A DNA stretch of 64,000 nt, from positions 558,001 through 622,000 of the forward strand of contig NZ_QKVK01000002.1 in assembly GCF_003234965.1 (NCBI RefSeq), given 5' to 3'. Shown here piece after piece: positions 3,474 to 19,665 of the stretch. Each line of letters begins with the position of its first letter. Position 1 is the first letter of the stretch. This stretch comes from Aestuariivirga litoralis. GTDB lineage: Bacteria; Pseudomonadota; Alphaproteobacteria; Rhizobiales; Aestuariivirgaceae. The notes below the pieces were generated by a model. That model made no database searches. It was given only the letters and a program-made list of their open reading frames with translations, and had not been told where the DNA came from. Position numbers and translations under genes: made by a program.

Positions 3474-3614
3474 CCACTCATCCCCCTGCCCCCGCCTCTC
3501 GGCCTCGCGCCACACATCCTCCTCCGCCGGCAGTCTCTTCGAGACATAGCGCCATGCCAGCGGCAGCAGCACCCTGCCATGTCGTGACGCGAACTCGATC
3601 CAGAAGGATGACCG
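3474..3614 (-). pseudogene. Fragment of the prophage small membrane protein gene (relative of 8718-8975)
   Basis: About 47 codons read RSSFWIEFASRHGR, LLPLAWRYVSKR and WREAERRGQGDEW, matching the middle and C-terminal part of the protein at 8718-8975 (RPSFWIEFGSR, LLPLAWQFVGKR, WREAERRGQGDEW). The N-terminal membrane helix of the intact relative is absent and the frame runs on into unrelated sequence on both sides. The fragment begins about 14 bases beyond the stop of the neighbouring aldolase gene. It is best read as a relic of a related prophage's left arm. Confidence 0.75.
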
Positions 3615-3627
3615 CTGCGACGCTCCG

Positions 3628-4422
3628 CTACCAGCGCCGGCTGAAGGATTTTCGCGTGATAGCGGCAACTTCCTTTATCAGGCTGCTTGCCTCTTGTTCC
3701 GGCCGCTGCCAGATCTTGCGGCCGACGACAACGCCCTGGGCTCCGGCCTCGATGGCTTCACGGATGTCTTTCAGGGTTGAGTCCTTGTCGCCACTCAACG
3801 GTCCTCCGGCAACGACTATCGGAATGTTGAGCTCAGCACAGAGTTTCGCCGTTGCATCGGGCCCCGGGAAGGTGATCTTGATGATGTCGGCCCCGAGGTC
3901 GTAGCCGACACGGGCTACTTCCAGCTCGGCCTCGATAATCTCAGGAGTACGCGGCGCGGCGAGGAAGACCGGTTCGACCATGACGGGAATGTGCCACTTT
4001 GAGGCCTCCGACACGACCGTGCCGATGCGTTTGCAATAGAGCACCTTCTCAGCATCATTGACGTTCCACGGCAGCAATAGCTTGACGCAATCGACTCCAA
4101 GGCGAGCCGCATCCTCGACACTCGCGACCAGCGTACCAGTACCCGTGTCAGGCGCACCCGTCGGCCAGAAGGCGTCTATGGCCAGAACCCGCGCGAGGTG
4201 TGACGCCTTGGCGAGTTCGACTTCGGACTGCTTGACGATTCCGGTCGATACCATGAACCCCGTAATGTCTTCCGGAATGAAGCGCTTCATCACCTCCACA
4301 GGAGCTTCCAGTGACTTTACCCTGCCCCACACCAGGCCATGGTCAATGGGCACGATCAGCGCAGCGCGATCGGGGCGCAGAACACGGTTCATGCGATAGT
4401 TGGTCGAATAGCGGTTGGTCAT
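3628..4422 (-). CDS. DeoC/LsrF/FbaB-type class I aldolase family protein
   Basis: The 264-residue protein has the family's N-terminal PIDHGLVWG, a likely Schiff-base lysine in ADIIKITFPG near residue 188, IVVAGGP, and the phosphate-site end VVVGRKIWQRPE. Relatives include archaeal-type class I fructose-bisphosphate aldolase, LsrF and aminodideoxyheptulosonate synthase, so a class I (Lys-based) aldol or thiolase-like reaction is expected; the substrate is unknown. It lies 64 bases downstream of the GMC oxidoreductase gene and probably belongs to that operon. The short C-terminus ends next to a phage-gene fragment, so its 3' end may have been remodelled by an insertion. Confidence 0.8.
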   Translation of the reverse strand: MTNRYSTNYRMNRVLRPDRAALIVPIDHGLVWGRVKSLEAPVEVMKRFIPEDITGFMVSTGIVKQSEVELAKASHLARVLAIDAFWPTGAPDTGTGTLVASVEDAARLGVDCVKLLLPWNVNDAEKVLYCKRIGTVVSEASKWHIPVMVEPVFLAAPRTPEIIEAELEVARVGYDLGADIIKITFPGPDATAKLCAELNIPIVVAGGPLSGDKDSTLKDIREAIEAGAQGVVVGRKIWQRPEQEASSLIKEVAAITRKSFSRRW

Positions 4423-4486
4423 TTGGCTCCTCGTCGCGGCATGAAAGCAGTCAGGTGATCATTGAGGTCGTTCGGCCAACAGCTCA

Positions 4487-5995
4487 TCACTGAAGAAGAT
4501 GCTCTGCCGTTTTCACCGCCTGCGCCACGATGGTTAGCGAGGGGTTCACCGCCGTTGACGACGGCAGGAACGAGGCATCGACGACATAGAGATTGTCGAG
4601 ATCCCAGGCCTTGCAGTTGGAATCGAGAACCGATGTCGCAGGATCACTGCCGAAGCGCGCCGTGCCGCACTGGTGCATGGCGACGGTGATGTCCATCTTC
4701 TGAGTGATGACGATCGGATAGCCGAGGCTCTTCATCAGACTGGTCCAGTGGCTGACGAGCTCGCCGTGGGATTTCAGGTTGTTGGGCGTGTAGGATACGC
4801 GGATCTTGCCGTCGCCATCTACCGTGACCCGGTTGTTGGGGTCCGGCAGGTCCTCCGACATGATCCACCAGTCGACGCTACGTTCGGCGAACCAACTCAT
4901 CAGGCTTTCGGGTACCCAGCGCATGTTCGCGGTGAGCATGCCTCCCTGCAGCTTGCCCAGCCCCTGAACATTGCCGAGTGGATAGGGTCTCACCTCGTTC
5001 TTCAGATAGTAGTCGTTGACGCACAGCGACTTCTGGAAGACCACGTGGTTCTTCTTGAAGGGGTTCACCGCCATCATGGCCGTGTTGTTGTGGGCCATAT
5101 AGTTGCGGCCGAGCAGGTCGGAGGAGTTCGCCAGCCCCCTCGGGTGCCTGTCATTGGCGGAGCGCAGCAGCAAGGCCGCCGAATTGATGGCGCCGGCACT
5201 GGAGATGAACACGCCGCCAGAAATCACCCGCCGCTCGCCCTTCTGCTCGATCTCGACCCCCGTCACCTTGCGGCCGGATGGATCGGTGAGGAAGCGGTGC
5301 ACATAGGTTTCGAGGATGAGATCGACATTGCCTGTGGCCAGGGCCGGGTCGACAAGGCGCACCTCGGCGTCGTTCTTCGCGCCGATCTTGCAGGCAAAGC
5401 CATCGCAGGTGCGGCAGCGGATGCATTTGCCGCCGGCGTGCAGGTCGATGGCCACGGGCAAGGGAAAGGGGTGGAGCCCCTTGGCCTTCAGCTTCGTGTT
5501 GAAGGCCTCGATCTCGGGTTCATGACCGATGGCGGGATGCGGGAAGGGTGCGGACCGCGGCGGCTCGGTGGGGTCGAGCCCCTGCTCGCCGTGGGTGCCC
5601 ATCAGCTTCTCGGCCACGGCATAATAGGGTTCGAGATCGGCATAGCGGATGGGCCAGGCGGGGGTTCGCCCGGCTTCGTGCTCCATGCCTTCGAAGTCCT
5701 GCTCGCGGAAGCGCAGCGTCGCCGTGCCGAAGAACTTGGAATTGCCGCCGACATAGTAATAGGTCGACGGCGTGAACTCGGCACCGCTGCGATCGCGCCA
5801 GGTTTCCCGCGTCGAATATTTCCGGTCGTGGAAGACGGCCTTGACGCTCCAGTTGTCGGCCTCGCGCGGAAGCCTGGTGCCGCGCTCAATGACCAGCACC
5901 TTGCGGCCTGCCTGCGCCAGCCGGTTGGCCATGGCCCCGCCGCCGACACCCGCACCGACAATCACCACGTCATAGGATGATTTCACACCGCTCAT
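4487..5995 (-). CDS. GMC family FAD-dependent oxidoreductase
   Basis: The 502-residue protein opens with a Rossmann FAD motif (VVIVGAGVGGGAMA near residue 10). It ends with the GMC C-terminal catalytic region, HQCGTARFG near residue 435 and NPSLTIVA near residue 483, carrying the His and Asn placed over flavin N5. A cysteine-rich stretch (CIRCRTCDGFACKIG near residue 190) could hold an Fe-S cluster or disulfides, as in some sugar and polyol dehydrogenases. No signal peptide is visible. It overlaps the GntR gene by four bases (ATGA). It probably oxidises an alcohol or sugar group; the substrate is not known. Confidence 0.85.
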   Translation of the reverse strand: MSGVKSSYDVVIVGAGVGGGAMANRLAQAGRKVLVIERGTRLPREADNWSVKAVFHDRKYSTRETWRDRSGAEFTPSTYYYVGGNSKFFGTATLRFREQDFEGMEHEAGRTPAWPIRYADLEPYYAVAEKLMGTHGEQGLDPTEPPRSAPFPHPAIGHEPEIEAFNTKLKAKGLHPFPLPVAIDLHAGGKCIRCRTCDGFACKIGAKNDAEVRLVDPALATGNVDLILETYVHRFLTDPSGRKVTGVEIEQKGERRVISGGVFISSAGAINSAALLLRSANDRHPRGLANSSDLLGRNYMAHNNTAMMAVNPFKKNHVVFQKSLCVNDYYLKNEVRPYPLGNVQGLGKLQGGMLTANMRWVPESLMSWFAERSVDWWIMSEDLPDPNNRVTVDGDGKIRVSYTPNNLKSHGELVSHWTSLMKSLGYPIVITQKMDITVAMHQCGTARFGSDPATSVLDSNCKAWDLDNLYVVDASFLPSSTAVNPSLTIVAQAVKTAEHLLQ

Positions 5996-14902: not shown

Positions 14903-17662
14903 TCAGGCTCCGTACCAGGAGGGCTTGCGACCGGCGCTGTTGACCCGGCGCTTGGCTGAGTAGCGGATCAGCTTTTCGGCCACGTCATTGTCGGCGACCA
15001 TCTGGAAGGACTGCTCACCAAGGCTCAGCACCACGGGCCGTCCTGTGGCAGCACCAGGCGCCATGACAGAAGGTGGCGCCACGCTGACGGGACCGCCCAG
15101 CGTGAAGCCGGGGAAGCCATCCCTAACGACAGGCCCGGCGCTGAGGCCGTTGATGGCGCGCAGGAAGTCGACGCCGTACTTCCGCACCGCAGCGGCCCGG
15201 ATGATGAACTCGCCGTTCGACAGCCAGGCCGGAATGGAGTCACTGGTTGCACTCCCCGCTCCCCGCACATAGCCGCCGGAGGCATATTTGGATCCACTGC
15301 TGCTGCTCGCCTGGGCCCGGAGACGGGCCGCCTCAGCAACGGCGCGCTGCAGGGCCGCGATGATGGCAGCGATCTGGCGCTGGATGGCGGCTCCTGCGGC
15401 GGCGACGGCATTGCCCACAGCCGAGAAGCCGACCTGGACGATGGATTGAAAGCTCCCGGCGATTTCCCTGATCCGGGCTTGCGCGTTGACGAAGGGCTGG
15501 ACCAGGGCCGCAGCAAGGGCCTCGGCGCCTGCGACGTCGCCGGCAATGTCTGTTGCCGTGGCAATGGCATCCCGAATGGCGGCGGCACTCTGCGCGACCG
15601 TCTGGCTCGCTCCAGACCAGGCCGAGACGACGAGGTTGGCCACGCCGGAGAAGGCGGAATAGGCGGTATCGACGATGCCTTGCCAGATGGGGGCCAAGGC
15701 CATGGCGACCCCCGAGGCGGCTTCGGTGATCGCACCCCAGGTCTGCGAGGCGGCCATAAGAAGACCTTCACGCGCGAGCGCCACCGAGCTGGTGATGCCG
15801 GACCAGGTATCGCTCGCCACCGTGATGAGGCCCAGCCGGGCGTCCGCCGCGATGGTGGTGAGCCCGGTCCAGAGGTCACTGTAGGCGAGCTTCAGCCCAT
15901 CGAAGGCGGTGGTTGCGGCCGTGATCAACCCGGCCCAGGTGTCGGTGAACATGGTCTTCACGCCCTCGATGGCTGAGGCTGTCACCGCCTTGATGCCATC
16001 CCAGGCAGCGGAGAAGGCCGTTTCGAGGAAGGCAAAGGCTGCCTTGGCGCCGGCGACGATGTCGTCCCAGAAGGCATAAAGCAGTGCGCCTAGCGCCACC
16101 ACGCCCACGGCGATGAGCCCGCCGGGGCTGAGAAACATCGCAAGCTGCGGCAAAACGGAGAGAAGTGCCCGCACACCCGTGGCCAGCACCGGCCAGAAAC
16201 CAGCGATCACCTTCCCCAGCGGCGCGATGAGCGCCAACACGTCGAACACGAGCCGCAGCGAGTTGACGCCCAACCCCAGCACCGAGAACAGCAGCCTGAA
16301 CCCGCCCGCGAGCTGCGTGACGGCCGCCACGATCAGCAACTGGTCGCCCGAGAGGTTAGTGCCGAAGATCCGGTTGATCTGCTCGGCCACCGGCTGGGCG
16401 TACTGGCGGATTGTCTGGAACGCCGGGACCAGCACATTGTCGAAAAGGTCTTTGGCCGCCGCACCCGCGCTGACAAGCCCGTCACGGAGATCGACGATCC
16501 ACTGGTTATGAACGGCGGCATCTGGCCCACCGGTCGCCATGGTGATGAGGTCCTGGACGATGGACACGAACTTCGCCGCCGCGCCGGTGATGAAGGCGTT
16601 GATAGCGGCCGAGTTGTCTGCAATGGCGCCGAGGATCGCGTCGGAGGCCTTGGTGATGCCCGGCGCGATCAGCGAGGTGAAGACGTTGCGGTACTGGCCG
16701 AAGAGGAAGCCGATGACGGCCAGCTCATCGCCTGCGGCATCGGCCGCCTTCACCCCTTCATTGGTAACGAGCGCGTTGAAAGACTTGAGGATCCCCTTGT
16801 AGTTCTCGATCGCCTTGCCGCCCTGGTTCAGGAACGGGATCAGCTTCGGCCCGAGCTTGGGGCCGAGGAGATCAATCGCCAGCTGCGTCTTCTCCGCCCC
16901 GTCCTTCATGCCGGCGAAGGCCGTGGCGATGGTCTTCAGCACATCCGCCGGAATGAGCTTGGTGCCGGGTGGGACACCGGCCTTGGCCAGCACCGTGCTC
17001 AGGGCCTTCGCCTTGTCGGAGAGCTTGTCGGTGGCCTTTCCGGCGCTGTCACTTCCCGACATGATGCCGCGGTAGATCTTGACGCCGTTCTGCTCGGCGA
17101 CTGTGAAGCTGTTTCCGAGCTTCACCATGCCGTTATAGGCGCCGGTCGTGTTCAGTTCGTTCAGCGTATCGCTCAAGGAGGCGATGGCCTTGACGAAGTC
17201 CCCGGCGCCGACCCCCGCCTGCACACCGGCATACTGGAAGGCCTGCAGGTCCTCCGAAGCAATGCCGAGCGATTCCGAGAGATCGTTCAGCTGGCCGAGG
17301 CTGTCGAGGCTGCCCTTGAGAAAGACACCGGCACCGTAGGCCGCTCCGCTGAGTGTCGCCGTGAAGATGCCTATGCGCGCAGCCGAGGAATGGAAGGCGC
17401 CCGAGATGTTGCCGAGGCTCTTGCCGACCCGGCCGAAACTATCGGCCACCTTGGAGCCTGCAGCCTGGAGGCCGGCGAACTGGGCCTTGAGATTGGCAAA
17501 CGCCGAACCGAAGGATTTGCCGACGCTGACATTCCTGAAGGCGGCCTCGAGCTTCCTCGCTGCCGCCTCGCCCTCATCGCCCATCTTCCTGAGCATGGCG
17601 ACGATCTCGTCGCCGCCTTCCAGCGCAATCGACTGGTTGATGACATTGCGTCCGCGGGCCAT
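14903..17662 (-). CDS. Tail tape measure protein
   Basis: This 919-residue protein is the longest phage product. It sets tail length and probably passes into the host membrane on DNA entry. An N-terminal helical region (about 1-110) is followed by hydrophobic helices near residues 450-540 (GLIAVGVVALGALLYAF), five tandem 22-residue units with Trp at position 3 (residues 552-661), and an Ala-rich helix. The C-terminal SIPAWLSNGEFIIRA with GGYVRG is a common tape-measure end. With about 1.5 angstroms per helical residue, a tail near 130-140 nm would be expected. Confidence 0.9.
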   Translation of the reverse strand: MARGRNVINQSIALEGGDEIVAMLRKMGDEGEAAARKLEAAFRNVSVGKSFGSAFANLKAQFAGLQAAGSKVADSFGRVGKSLGNISGAFHSSAARIGIFTATLSGAAYGAGVFLKGSLDSLGQLNDLSESLGIASEDLQAFQYAGVQAGVGAGDFVKAIASLSDTLNELNTTGAYNGMVKLGNSFTVAEQNGVKIYRGIMSGSDSAGKATDKLSDKAKALSTVLAKAGVPPGTKLIPADVLKTIATAFAGMKDGAEKTQLAIDLLGPKLGPKLIPFLNQGGKAIENYKGILKSFNALVTNEGVKAADAAGDELAVIGFLFGQYRNVFTSLIAPGITKASDAILGAIADNSAAINAFITGAAAKFVSIVQDLITMATGGPDAAVHNQWIVDLRDGLVSAGAAAKDLFDNVLVPAFQTIRQYAQPVAEQINRIFGTNLSGDQLLIVAAVTQLAGGFRLLFSVLGLGVNSLRLVFDVLALIAPLGKVIAGFWPVLATGVRALLSVLPQLAMFLSPGGLIAVGVVALGALLYAFWDDIVAGAKAAFAFLETAFSAAWDGIKAVTASAIEGVKTMFTDTWAGLITAATTAFDGLKLAYSDLWTGLTTIAADARLGLITVASDTWSGITSSVALAREGLLMAASQTWGAITEAASGVAMALAPIWQGIVDTAYSAFSGVANLVVSAWSGASQTVAQSAAAIRDAIATATDIAGDVAGAEALAAALVQPFVNAQARIREIAGSFQSIVQVGFSAVGNAVAAAGAAIQRQIAAIIAALQRAVAEAARLRAQASSSSGSKYASGGYVRGAGSATSDSIPAWLSNGEFIIRAAAVRKYGVDFLRAINGLSAGPVVRDGFPGFTLGGPVSVAPPSVMAPGAATGRPVVLSLGEQSFQMVADNDVAEKLIRYSAKRRVNSAGRKPSWYGA
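15680..16009 (-). repeat. Five tandem 22-codon repeats in the tape measure gene
   Basis: Units begin at 16009, 15943, 15877, 15811 and 15745 (minus strand), each 66 bases. The encoded units read AAWDGIKAV, DTWAGLITA, DLWTGLTTI, DTWSGITSS and QTWGAITEA at their starts, with Trp always third. The DNA has diverged, so these are old repeats held by protein constraint. Confidence 0.8.
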
Positions 17663-17734: not shown

Positions 17735-17959
17735 GTGAACGTGATCAACTTCGAGGACAGGATCGTGGCACGTTTGGCAAAGAAGGCGGCAGCCTACGGC
17801 ATGGATGTTGTCCGCGAGCCCGCCGGCACCTGGGCGCTGGTCGCGTGGGGGTTCAGGACACCGGAACTCTCAGGCGTCTCGCTGCGGGAGATCGAGGCTG
17901 ATCTCGACTCCTGCGCGGAACTGGAGTTTCAGTTTCACACCGAGATGAACGACGCATAA
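17735..17959 (+). CDS. Small plus-strand protein inside the leftward tail operon
   Basis: The 74-residue product MNVINFEDRIVARLAKK is encoded opposite to all neighbours, starting at GTG 17735 with GAGGAG upstream. Its last 25 bases overlap the 3' end of the convergent 210-residue gene. It has an amphipathic N-terminal helix and an acidic C-terminus (LREIEADLDSCAELEF). I do not recognise it. A separately transcribed gene inside a structural operon is typical of phage 'morons' expressed from the lysogen. Confidence 0.6.
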   Translation: MNVINFEDRIVARLAKKAAAYGMDVVREPAGTWALVAWGFRTPELSGVSLREIEADLDSCAELEFQFHTEMNDA

Positions 17960-18567
17960 AGCTGAGGCAACCGGTCGCTCGCGCTGCGCACGATCGCACT
18001 GATGTTCAGCTTCTTGCGGATCGACACGCTGTCCACTCCGACGAAGACCGGCACGGACACGAACGGACCCTCTCCTCGCCCACCTGAGCGGAAGCGGGCG
18101 AGGCTGATCTTCGTCATGTTCTTCCCCTTCTTCGCCTTGGCCACGAGCAGCGGTCGCTTGCCGGGGCGCTTCACAAAGGAAAGTGGGCCAATGCTTTTCC
18201 GGAACAGTTCCGGCGTCATGGGTTTCCGGCCATAGCGCTGCGGCGTTGAGGGAAGTGCGAGCCACAGGCGAGGCCGGCCGCGGATAGTGACGCCTTCCTC
18301 GAATACCCCGGCATAGGGGATCTTGTGATAGATATGCGCCGTCGCGTTGAGGCTGTTGCGCCCTTGCGGATAGATATCCACCCGCAGCGCCTTGACGAAG
18401 CCCGCCCCCAGGCCGGCTGCAGCGATGTCGGCCCGTCCCTCCGCCTTCACGATGGCGCCCGCTGCAGCAATGGCTCGCTGGGCAGCTTCCGCCATCGGGG
18501 CATAGCGGGCGCGGAAGGCCGCTTCGAAGCTTCCCTGCTCATAGCGGTAGCGAAACCGTGCAGTCAT
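17935..18567 (-). CDS. Phage tail-completion-like protein (DUF6441-like)
   Basis: The 210-residue protein has an N-terminal helical part, then IYHKIPYAGVFEEGVTIRGRPRLWLAL near residues 78-105, a pattern I associate with DUF6441 and HK97 gp10-like proteins. Basic stretches GKRPLLVAKAKKGKN follow. It lies between the tail chaperones and the tape measure, slightly later than gp10 usually does. Its ATG overlaps the stop of the chaperone frameshift product, so it is coupled. The fold assignment is tentative. Confidence 0.55.
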   Translation of the reverse strand: MTARFRYRYEQGSFEAAFRARYAPMAEAAQRAIAAAGAIVKAEGRADIAAAGLGAGFVKALRVDIYPQGRNSLNATAHIYHKIPYAGVFEEGVTIRGRPRLWLALPSTPQRYGRKPMTPELFRKSIGPLSFVKRPGKRPLLVAKAKKGKNMTKISLARFRSGGRGEGPFVSVPVFVGVDSVSIRKKLNISAIVRSASDRLPQLYASFISV

Positions 18568-18842
18568 TCGCGGGTGAGCTCCTTGTGCTGGCGGCGGATT
18601 TCCTTGGCGTCACCCCGGGCCGCGAGAGCCGAAATGGAGAGTGCCTGGGCAGCCTCCCTCCCCAAACGCCGGTGTACGAGCTTCAGGAAGCCGGCAATCC
18701 GCCGCGGCGTGTAGCTCCACACGGAAGTCGGCGCGTGCCCGGCCGCGATCAGTTCTTCGATGCCGGCAGCGAGGTCGTAGCCAGCGTCGCGGAAGCGCCC
18801 CCGGCGAGGAGGCCCAACCGGGAGAGCCTTTCCACCAAAGGG
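18564..18842 (-). CDS. Frameshift extension (T part) of the tail assembly chaperone
   Basis: A minus-strand frame in the -1 register from 18842 to the stop at 18564 has no usable start codon of its own. It encodes a protein-like C-terminal domain of about 90 residues containing RDAGYDLAAGIEELIAAG, SVWSYTPRRIAGFLKL and IRRQHKELTRE. It overlaps the last 94 bases of the upstream chaperone gene. A CCCTTTG heptamer at the start of the overlap would join the two into a product of about 200 residues. This mirrors gpG-gpGT of lambda, where a few percent of ribosomes shift between tail tube and tape measure genes. Confidence 0.7.
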   Translation of the reverse strand, partial: PFGGKALPVGPPRRGRFRDAGYDLAAGIEELIAAGHAPTSVWSYTPRRIAGFLKLVHRRLGREAAQALSISALAARGDAKEIRRQHKELTRE

Positions 18843-19165
18843 CCAAGACCCCGCGGCATAGTGAGTTCGACGATGGCAGCCAGCAGGTCGGCTTGCTCCT
18901 CGAGGGTCAGGTTGTCGGCCGCCTTTTCGGCCTGGGCGTCACCCGGAGCTCCCGTCCCCGCTGCGATGATGGCGGCAATCACGTCACCACCGAGCTTCAG
19001 AAGCTCCTCCAGAGCGACCTCGCGACCAGTCATCAGAGCCCGCAGCTCCGGAAACCGCGCCAGGAGGGAGGCGATCCCACGGGCCGAAACACCTGTGATG
19101 GTGATGTCCTGCCCGCGAATAGAGACGGACGAGGTAATGGGCGCAATGTCGACCAGTCCGACCAT
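18749..19165 (-). CDS. Tail assembly chaperone, short form (G-like)
   Basis: The 138-residue protein starts at ATG 19165, overlapping the tail tube stop by one base (TAATG). It is helical, with EVALEELLKLGGDVIAAIIAAG near residue 50 and NLTLEEQADLLAAIVEL near residue 86. Position between tail tube and tape measure is the classical place of the G chaperone. Its last 28 codons downstream of CCCTTTG would be replaced in the frameshifted form. Confidence 0.7.
   Translation of the reverse strand: MVGLVDIAPITSSVSIRGQDITITGVSARGIASLLARFPELRALMTGREVALEELLKLGGDVIAAIIAAGTGAPGDAQAEKAADNLTLEEQADLLAAIVELTMPRGLGPLVERLSRLGLLAGGASATLATTSLPASKN
18836..18842 (-). other. Probable -1 ribosomal frameshift slippery site
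   Basis: On the minus strand the heptamer C-CCT-TTG is in register with the chaperone frame, giving X-XXY-YYZ; slipping one base back yields CCC-TTT. It lies exactly where the start-less -1 frame opens. No downstream pseudoknot was worked out. Confidence 0.65.
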
Positions 19166-19665
19166 TAGACGGTCTCCAGGTCGGTAATGGTGCCGAAGGA
19201 GCCGGAAACCGCCGCACACTCTCCGGTCAGTTCCAGCGTCCCCCACTCGTCCGAGATCAGGCTGATGGACGACGACGGTATGAAATCTACCGCATGGAAC
19301 AGCCATTCGTACTTGGGCCCGATGTCATTGGTGCCGGTGAACTTGATGGCACCCGAGACGCTGCTCTGGTCGAAGATCTGGATGACGTCGGCCCCCGACA
19401 CGACGGCAGAGCTGCCGAGAACTGCCATCTTGAGGTTGTCGACGGTCCATTCGTCCAAAACGAGCCTCAGGGTGCCGCTCTTCTGGATCACCACCGACTT
19501 GTCCTTGAAGCGAACACCTGTGCGGGACGAGAAGTGATCGAGCTTCTCGATCTCGGGCGTGAACTCGAATTCGGTGCAGTTCCCCATGTCTGCAAAGGAC
19601 GTGGCACCCGTCTTCTTGAAGGACACGAGGCCCTTGCCCACGGTGTAATTGTCAATCGAGGCCAT
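19165..19665 (-). CDS. Major tail tube protein
   Basis: The 166-residue protein begins MASIDNYTVGKGLVSFKK and is a beta-rich single domain (TEFEFTPEIEKLDHFSS, WGTLELTGECAAVSG near the end). Size, composition and position between the tail terminator and the chaperones fit the tube subunit of long-tailed, non-contractile phages. The one-base overlap with the chaperone start makes expression coupled. Assignment relies on features and order rather than a catalytic motif. Confidence 0.7.
   Translation of the reverse strand: MASIDNYTVGKGLVSFKKTGATSFADMGNCTEFEFTPEIEKLDHFSSRTGVRFKDKSVVIQKSGTLRLVLDEWTVDNLKMAVLGSSAVVSGADVIQIFDQSSVSGAIKFTGTNDIGPKYEWLFHAVDFIPSSSISLISDEWGTLELTGECAAVSGSFGTITDLETV

Follow-up and report, generated by a model that had tools for sequence, protein, structure and literature searches.

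In the 64,000-nucleotide (nt) stretch of the Aestuariivirga litoralis genome analysed here (contig NZ_QKVK01000002.1, positions 558,001 to 622,000; hereafter the window, part of a genome of 4.23 Mb), a minus-strand prophage tail module carries a tail assembly chaperone gene, G, which very probably continues by a programmed -1 ribosomal frameshift, predicted from sequence, into a second overlapping frame, T. We are highly confident that the G-T arrangement is real, and that the original prediction was right in substance in taking it for a -1 programmed frameshift, a known kind. The features of the locus are as follows:

18749..19165, minus strand: gene G, tail assembly chaperone, 138 amino acids (PF23789 Pre_tape_measure, E 9.6e-12)
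18836..18842, minus strand: slippery heptamer C CCT TTG, in register, at G codons 109-110
18749..18938, minus strand: part of G overlapped by the open -1 frame
18564..18836, minus strand: T part, 90 residues and the TGA in the -1 frame past the slip, a predicted all-helical domain
18564..19165, minus strand: predicted 200-residue G-T fusion, joining 19165-18836 with 18836-18564
18720..18722, minus strand: first start codon of the T frame, GTG, equivalent to T residue 41 and inside the T domain

The reading frame of G extends from the ATG at 19165-19163 to the TGA at 18751-18749, and both the 138-residue gene and the in-register heptamer proposed for it were borne out, CCT being zero-frame codon 109 and TTG codon 110. 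The claim that the overlap opens exactly at the heptamer was wrong: the last -1 stop within G is the TGA at 18941-18939, which leaves the -1 frame open from 18938 onward, 96 nt ahead of the heptamer. Counted from the heptamer, this frame comprises 92 residues and ends at the TGA at 18566-18564. The product of a -1 slip was computed as 110 + 90 = 200 residues, the size that had been estimated.

Relatives were gathered from viral sequences with protein G and then with an alignment of nine G sequences, using search patterns placed elsewhere in G than the heptamer, which yielded at least 39 viral loci; three further loci (L003, L014, and L048) came from whole-genome searches with T, phrog_13355, and PF23789. 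Among the matches listed, 42 loci had a G match, and 36 distinct ones, the window included, were left after dropping six that were >93% identical to others (L025, L030, L043, L034, L035, and L036). The window is represented by an identical IMG/VR contig (L006), L049 being its own genome. Two loci with PF23789 matches below the cut-off and no G match (L050, L051) were unused, and L047, which encodes a canonical PF23789 protein, stands outside the tally, as tblastn with the window's G did not find it. Identity of G among the 36 loci goes down to about 37%, and in none do G and T share a frame. A tblastn search recovered T from 34 of them, the exceptions being L008, whose contig ends at the site (4 residues past it), and L045, where T is too divergent but does align. 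The alignment of T (A3) holds 31 of these loci (without L008, L041, L044, L046, and L048), that of G (A4) holds 32 (without L008, L044, L046, and L048), and a further one (A2) holds 20 picked by eye. No match was obtained in a phage collection for the DNA of the G/T region, G, T, or two distant G relatives, nor in a plasmid search with G, and a scan of genome contigs with A1 gave 593 pattern matches and no relative.

Conservation of the heptamer and of the open -1 frame had been proposed as the check on the prediction, and both were found. CCCTTT[C/G] occupies the homologous site in 32 of the 36 loci: 30 of the 34 with an intact G, plus L044 and L046, which have an indel in G upstream of the site and retain the heptamer. 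In L026, L028, and L045, the heptamer is lost because the proline codon at that place is CCC, and an in-register C CCA AAC stands five codons upstream instead, from which point the -1 frame is open. L048 alone has neither heptamer; its T still lies in the -1 frame, with a TTG in that frame 5 nt after the G stop, at which T is perhaps made by reinitiation. Past the site, the -1 frame stays open for 92-111 residues in 34 of the 35 loci that cover T, counting from zero-frame codon 104 in L048, and for 67 residues in L041.

The codons at the site are constrained too. Pro109 is encoded by CCT in 30/33 sequences, the other three being the loci with the replaced heptamer, Gly108 by GGC in 28/29, and Phe110 by TTC in 24/24. 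CCT makes up 16% of the proline codons in the pooled sequences, and its use at other conserved prolines is 2/30 at Pro104 (five residues from Pro109 and conserved nearly as strongly), 1/26 at Pro9, 1/25 at Pro74, and 7/33 at Pro39. When synonymous codons were resampled 20,000 times at the three positions of the site, the heptamer turned up in 2.08 loci on average and in 9 at most, compared with the 30/34 observed. Relatedness is not accounted for here; it acts equally on the neighbouring conserved prolines, whose codons serve as a control. Within the prophage, in-register XXXYYYZ words appear at 2 of 5,502 codon positions (14 open reading frames, ORFs, chosen by eye), both of them CCCGGGG, and therefore about 0.02 in-register heptamers would be expected by chance in the overlap. 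As far as sequences can tell, the comparison supports programmed -1 frameshifting.

T is a real protein under purifying selection in the -1 frame, and its protein-like character had been correctly anticipated. Compared with L003, its nearest relative and a member of the same genus, the window shows across the T-only region, read in this frame, a nonsynonymous divergence (dN) of 0.089 and a synonymous one (dS) of 1.197; 29 of the 40 differences fall at third positions, and dN exceeds dS when the region is read in the other two frames. The motif of the protein is GY..A.AIE.LIA.GH.P..VW.YTPR.I. Past the slip site, the zero-frame tail of G is variable among the relatives, and the model of G has low confidence from residue 123.

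As had been predicted too, the T frame of the window has no start of its own ahead of the domain. In the window, whose whole frame was surveyed, there is none before the GTG at 18722. In the relatives, the survey covered codons more than 25 residues from the TPR motif, and 31 of the 36 loci showed no T-frame ATG, GTG, or TTG ahead of the domain (L008 being cut at the site), while the T-frame starts of the other five are not preceded by any Shine-Dalgarno-like word. Gene calling based on start codons would miss most of T, and gene callers probably begin T near the GTG. The only PHROG that matches the T of the window, phrog_13355 (58 positions, function unknown), aligns with residues 41-92 and is matched by 19/31 T sequences; since its alignment begins at T residue 41, the site of the internal GTG, this family may consist of truncated gene calls. 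Sequence comparison of T with solved structures returned weak rows with unrelated names, and Foldseek with the T model found no match in BFVD at E <= 0.001.

We consider it very unlikely that T is a separate gene, translated by termination-reinitiation near the G stop or from an unusual start codon, with the heptamer being incidental. Such an organization has parallels in gene transfer agent (GTA)-like clusters from the bacterial family and order to which the window belongs (L052-L084, n = 33), which we take to be such from their gene order (tube, g10, PF09550 gene) and of which 26 have a start codon close to the stop of g10, their first gene; in the TTG of L048; and in the Aeromonas phage phiWae15 (Casjensviridae-type), where T is annotated as its own coding sequence starting on the G stop. 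However, the first T-frame start in the window falls within the domain, 31 of the 36 loci have, among the codons more than 25 residues from the TPR motif, no start before it and the rest have none with a Shine-Dalgarno-like word, and a separate T leaves the frozen heptamer unexplained.

Slippage of the transcript instead of the ribosome would likewise give a fusion, and nothing more specific speaks for it; the runs at the site are just C3 and T3, while what is conserved is the codon register, which makes this explanation most improbable. The homopolymers on which RNA polymerase is known to slip are far longer. Runs over 7-8 are mentioned for transcriptional slippage in PMC3711429. Least credible of all is a single G-T frame broken by an indel, either through decay or through mis-sequencing: two contigs (L044, L046) do have an indel in G, yet the same -1 offset and the heptamer recur in independent contigs with G identity from about 37%, no locus joins G and T in one frame, and T is under purifying selection.

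Under programmed -1 ribosomal frameshifting, the majority of ribosomes would complete G, whereas a minority would reach the heptamer with tRNA-Pro on CCT in the P site and tRNA-Leu on TTG in the A site, and both tRNAs would shift back by one base to pair with CCC and TTT. The slipped ribosome would next read GGT and continue to the TGA at 18564, giving the 200-residue G-T. On the lambda analogy, the tape measure protein would be bound by G, both on its own and within G-T, and tail tube subunits would be recruited by the T domain. We infer the slipping by ribosomes, its frequency, and the role of T, and the G to GT ratio and the assembly roles are likewise those suggested by the analogy.

No stimulator of the slip was shown, since RNAalifold on a 20-sequence alignment gave no conserved pair, Rfam had no match at the locus, and both folding and Shine-Dalgarno-like words were near the controls. 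Downstream, single-sequence folding of 50-nt segments was slightly stronger than in shuffles, with a mean z of -1.01 for segments beginning at base 3 past the heptamer and of -0.57 for those beginning at base 6 (34 sequences), whereas control places in the same genes ranged from -0.11 to -0.88. Shine-Dalgarno-like words were present 6-20 nt upstream of the site in 9/35 loci, the window not among them, and in 0-8/34 at seven control offsets. In E. coli, C_CC.U_UU.G is reported among the motifs that shift above 0.10% with no stimulator present, and C_CC.U_UU.C is listed there as a high-level one (PMC4066793); a phage tail chaperone cluster that was measured gave 6-7% (PMC3711429).

Pfam family, position, and likely fold all mark the protein encoded by G as a tail assembly chaperone. 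Its match to PF23789 scores 45.4 bits (gathering cut-off 27), and the family is matched at E up to 0.01 by 32/32 members of A4. The predicted fold of G is most like the HK97 tail chaperone (2ob9), with nothing at E <= 0.001 from Foldseek in the PDB and weak rows with unrelated names from sequence comparison with solved structures. The neighbouring genes are as follows:

19165..19665, minus strand: tail tube gene (phrog_807, E 5.1e-29), whose stop overlaps the G start (TAATG)
17935..18567, minus strand: DUF6441 gene (PF20039, E 4.9e-30), whose ATG overlaps the T stop (ATGA)
14903..17662, minus strand: tape measure gene (several tape-measure PHROGs, e.g., phrog_8462, E 3.1e-22)

Among the 36 loci, a tail tube relative lies upstream of G in 35 and a tape measure was detected downstream in 25. 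L016 carries inserted minus-strand ORFs (about 1969-2900 and 3607-4270), some of them between tube and G and one more between T and DUF6441, which leave the G/T unit intact; two of those between tube and G look like a RES-type toxin and its Xre-like antitoxin. In L028 (about 3621-5280), approximately 1.7 kb of other ORFs separate T from the DUF6441 gene.

In the GTA-like loci, the PF09550 gene is in the -1 frame of g10 in 28 of the 33. An in-register GGGAAA[C/G] lies in the overlap in nine, four of them without a start near the g10 stop and five with both, and 18 of the 28 -1-frame cases have a start near the stop and no GGGAAA[C/G] heptamer. We tentatively propose, as a whole that we hold to be somewhat less probable than its contrary, that in the PF23789 frameshift a branch of prophages exchanged purine heptamers (AAAAAAG/C, GGGAAAC) for a fixed pyrimidine one, CCCTTT[C/G], which side lineages replaced by CCCAAAC five codons upstream; that the heptamer alone, apparently with no conserved stimulator, sets the G to GT ratio; and that the T-like domain of GTAs in the same bacterial family alternates between a start of its own and a GGGAAA[C/G] frameshift. 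CCCTTTC, CCCTTTG, CCCAAAC, AAAAAAG, AAAAAAC, and GGGAAAC are natural heptamers at nearly one place in one protein family, a series well suited to studying the tuning of slip efficiency in hosts other than E. coli. For general biology, the case is one more instance of a well-known trick, convincing but ordinary, with an uncommon slip site.

Among the known systems, the GTAs resemble the prophage in T. Phage_TAC_6 (PF09550), the second GTA chaperone gene, shares the W..TPR.I motif (hhalign probability 84%, 21 columns), and 5/31 T sequences match PF09550 at E up to 0.1 (best 0.0036); the T of the window has no PF09550 match, and its genome gave none either. They differ in the start near the stop of the first gene, and the first genes of both systems are not detectably alike (hhalign probability 3%).

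The phages with PF23789 share the family of G. From 228 records with a match of this type, five were examined (Chi, Seifer, SS2019XI, RHph_X2_30, and phiWae15), all Casjensviridae-type phages with the same Pfam family as G, an open -1 T frame beyond the end of G, and a heptamer within about one codon of the present site (alignment, by eye). This heptamer is a different one, AAAAAAG in Chi, Seifer, SS2019XI, and phiWae15 and AAAAAAC in RHph_X2_30. Chi and Seifer annotate the joined product, and SS2019XI and RHph_X2_30 annotate no T as such. Their T domains were considered as relatives of the present T and set aside, the likeness being weak (hhalign probability 28%). The canonical PF23789 locus L047 has GGGAAAC, and the G-T proteins of AH2 and KL1, which group with the PF23789 systems, also have heptamers other than CCCTTTG, the published sites being GGGAAAC for KL1 and AAAAAAG for AH2 (PMC3483164). 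The one relevant paper that turned up for the heptamer concerns phage 9g, where CCCUUUUUUU is reported for a -2 shift.

For DUF6441, 12 phage records were matched and four examined. In three Rhodobacter phages with a relative of it, out of 11 matched, the chaperone is annotated as a joined product and GGGAAAC lies in register. The gene follows T in the window, and in these three phages (L085, L086, and L088) it precedes the tail tube, annotated as "minor tail protein". CCCTTT[C/G] was not met in the other chaperone records examined, and we make no claim that it is unpublished for tail chaperones.

The likeness to lambda gpG/gpGT lies in the arrangement and the slip: in both, G is followed by T at -1, between tail tube and tape measure, with the slip near the end of G. 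The lambda position that had been claimed for G-T holds with respect to tail tube and tape measure, but not for direct adjacency, as the DUF6441 gene separates T from the tape measure. The heptamer also differs, being GGGAAAG in lambda and CCCTTTG here. The roles of lambda G and GT in tail assembly are described in PMC5009743, and HK97, SPP1, and other phages are reported to have a gene that separates the chaperone from the tape measure (PMC3483164). Judged by its predicted products and layout, the present system is the lambda G-GT mechanism, with an uncommon pyrimidine heptamer.
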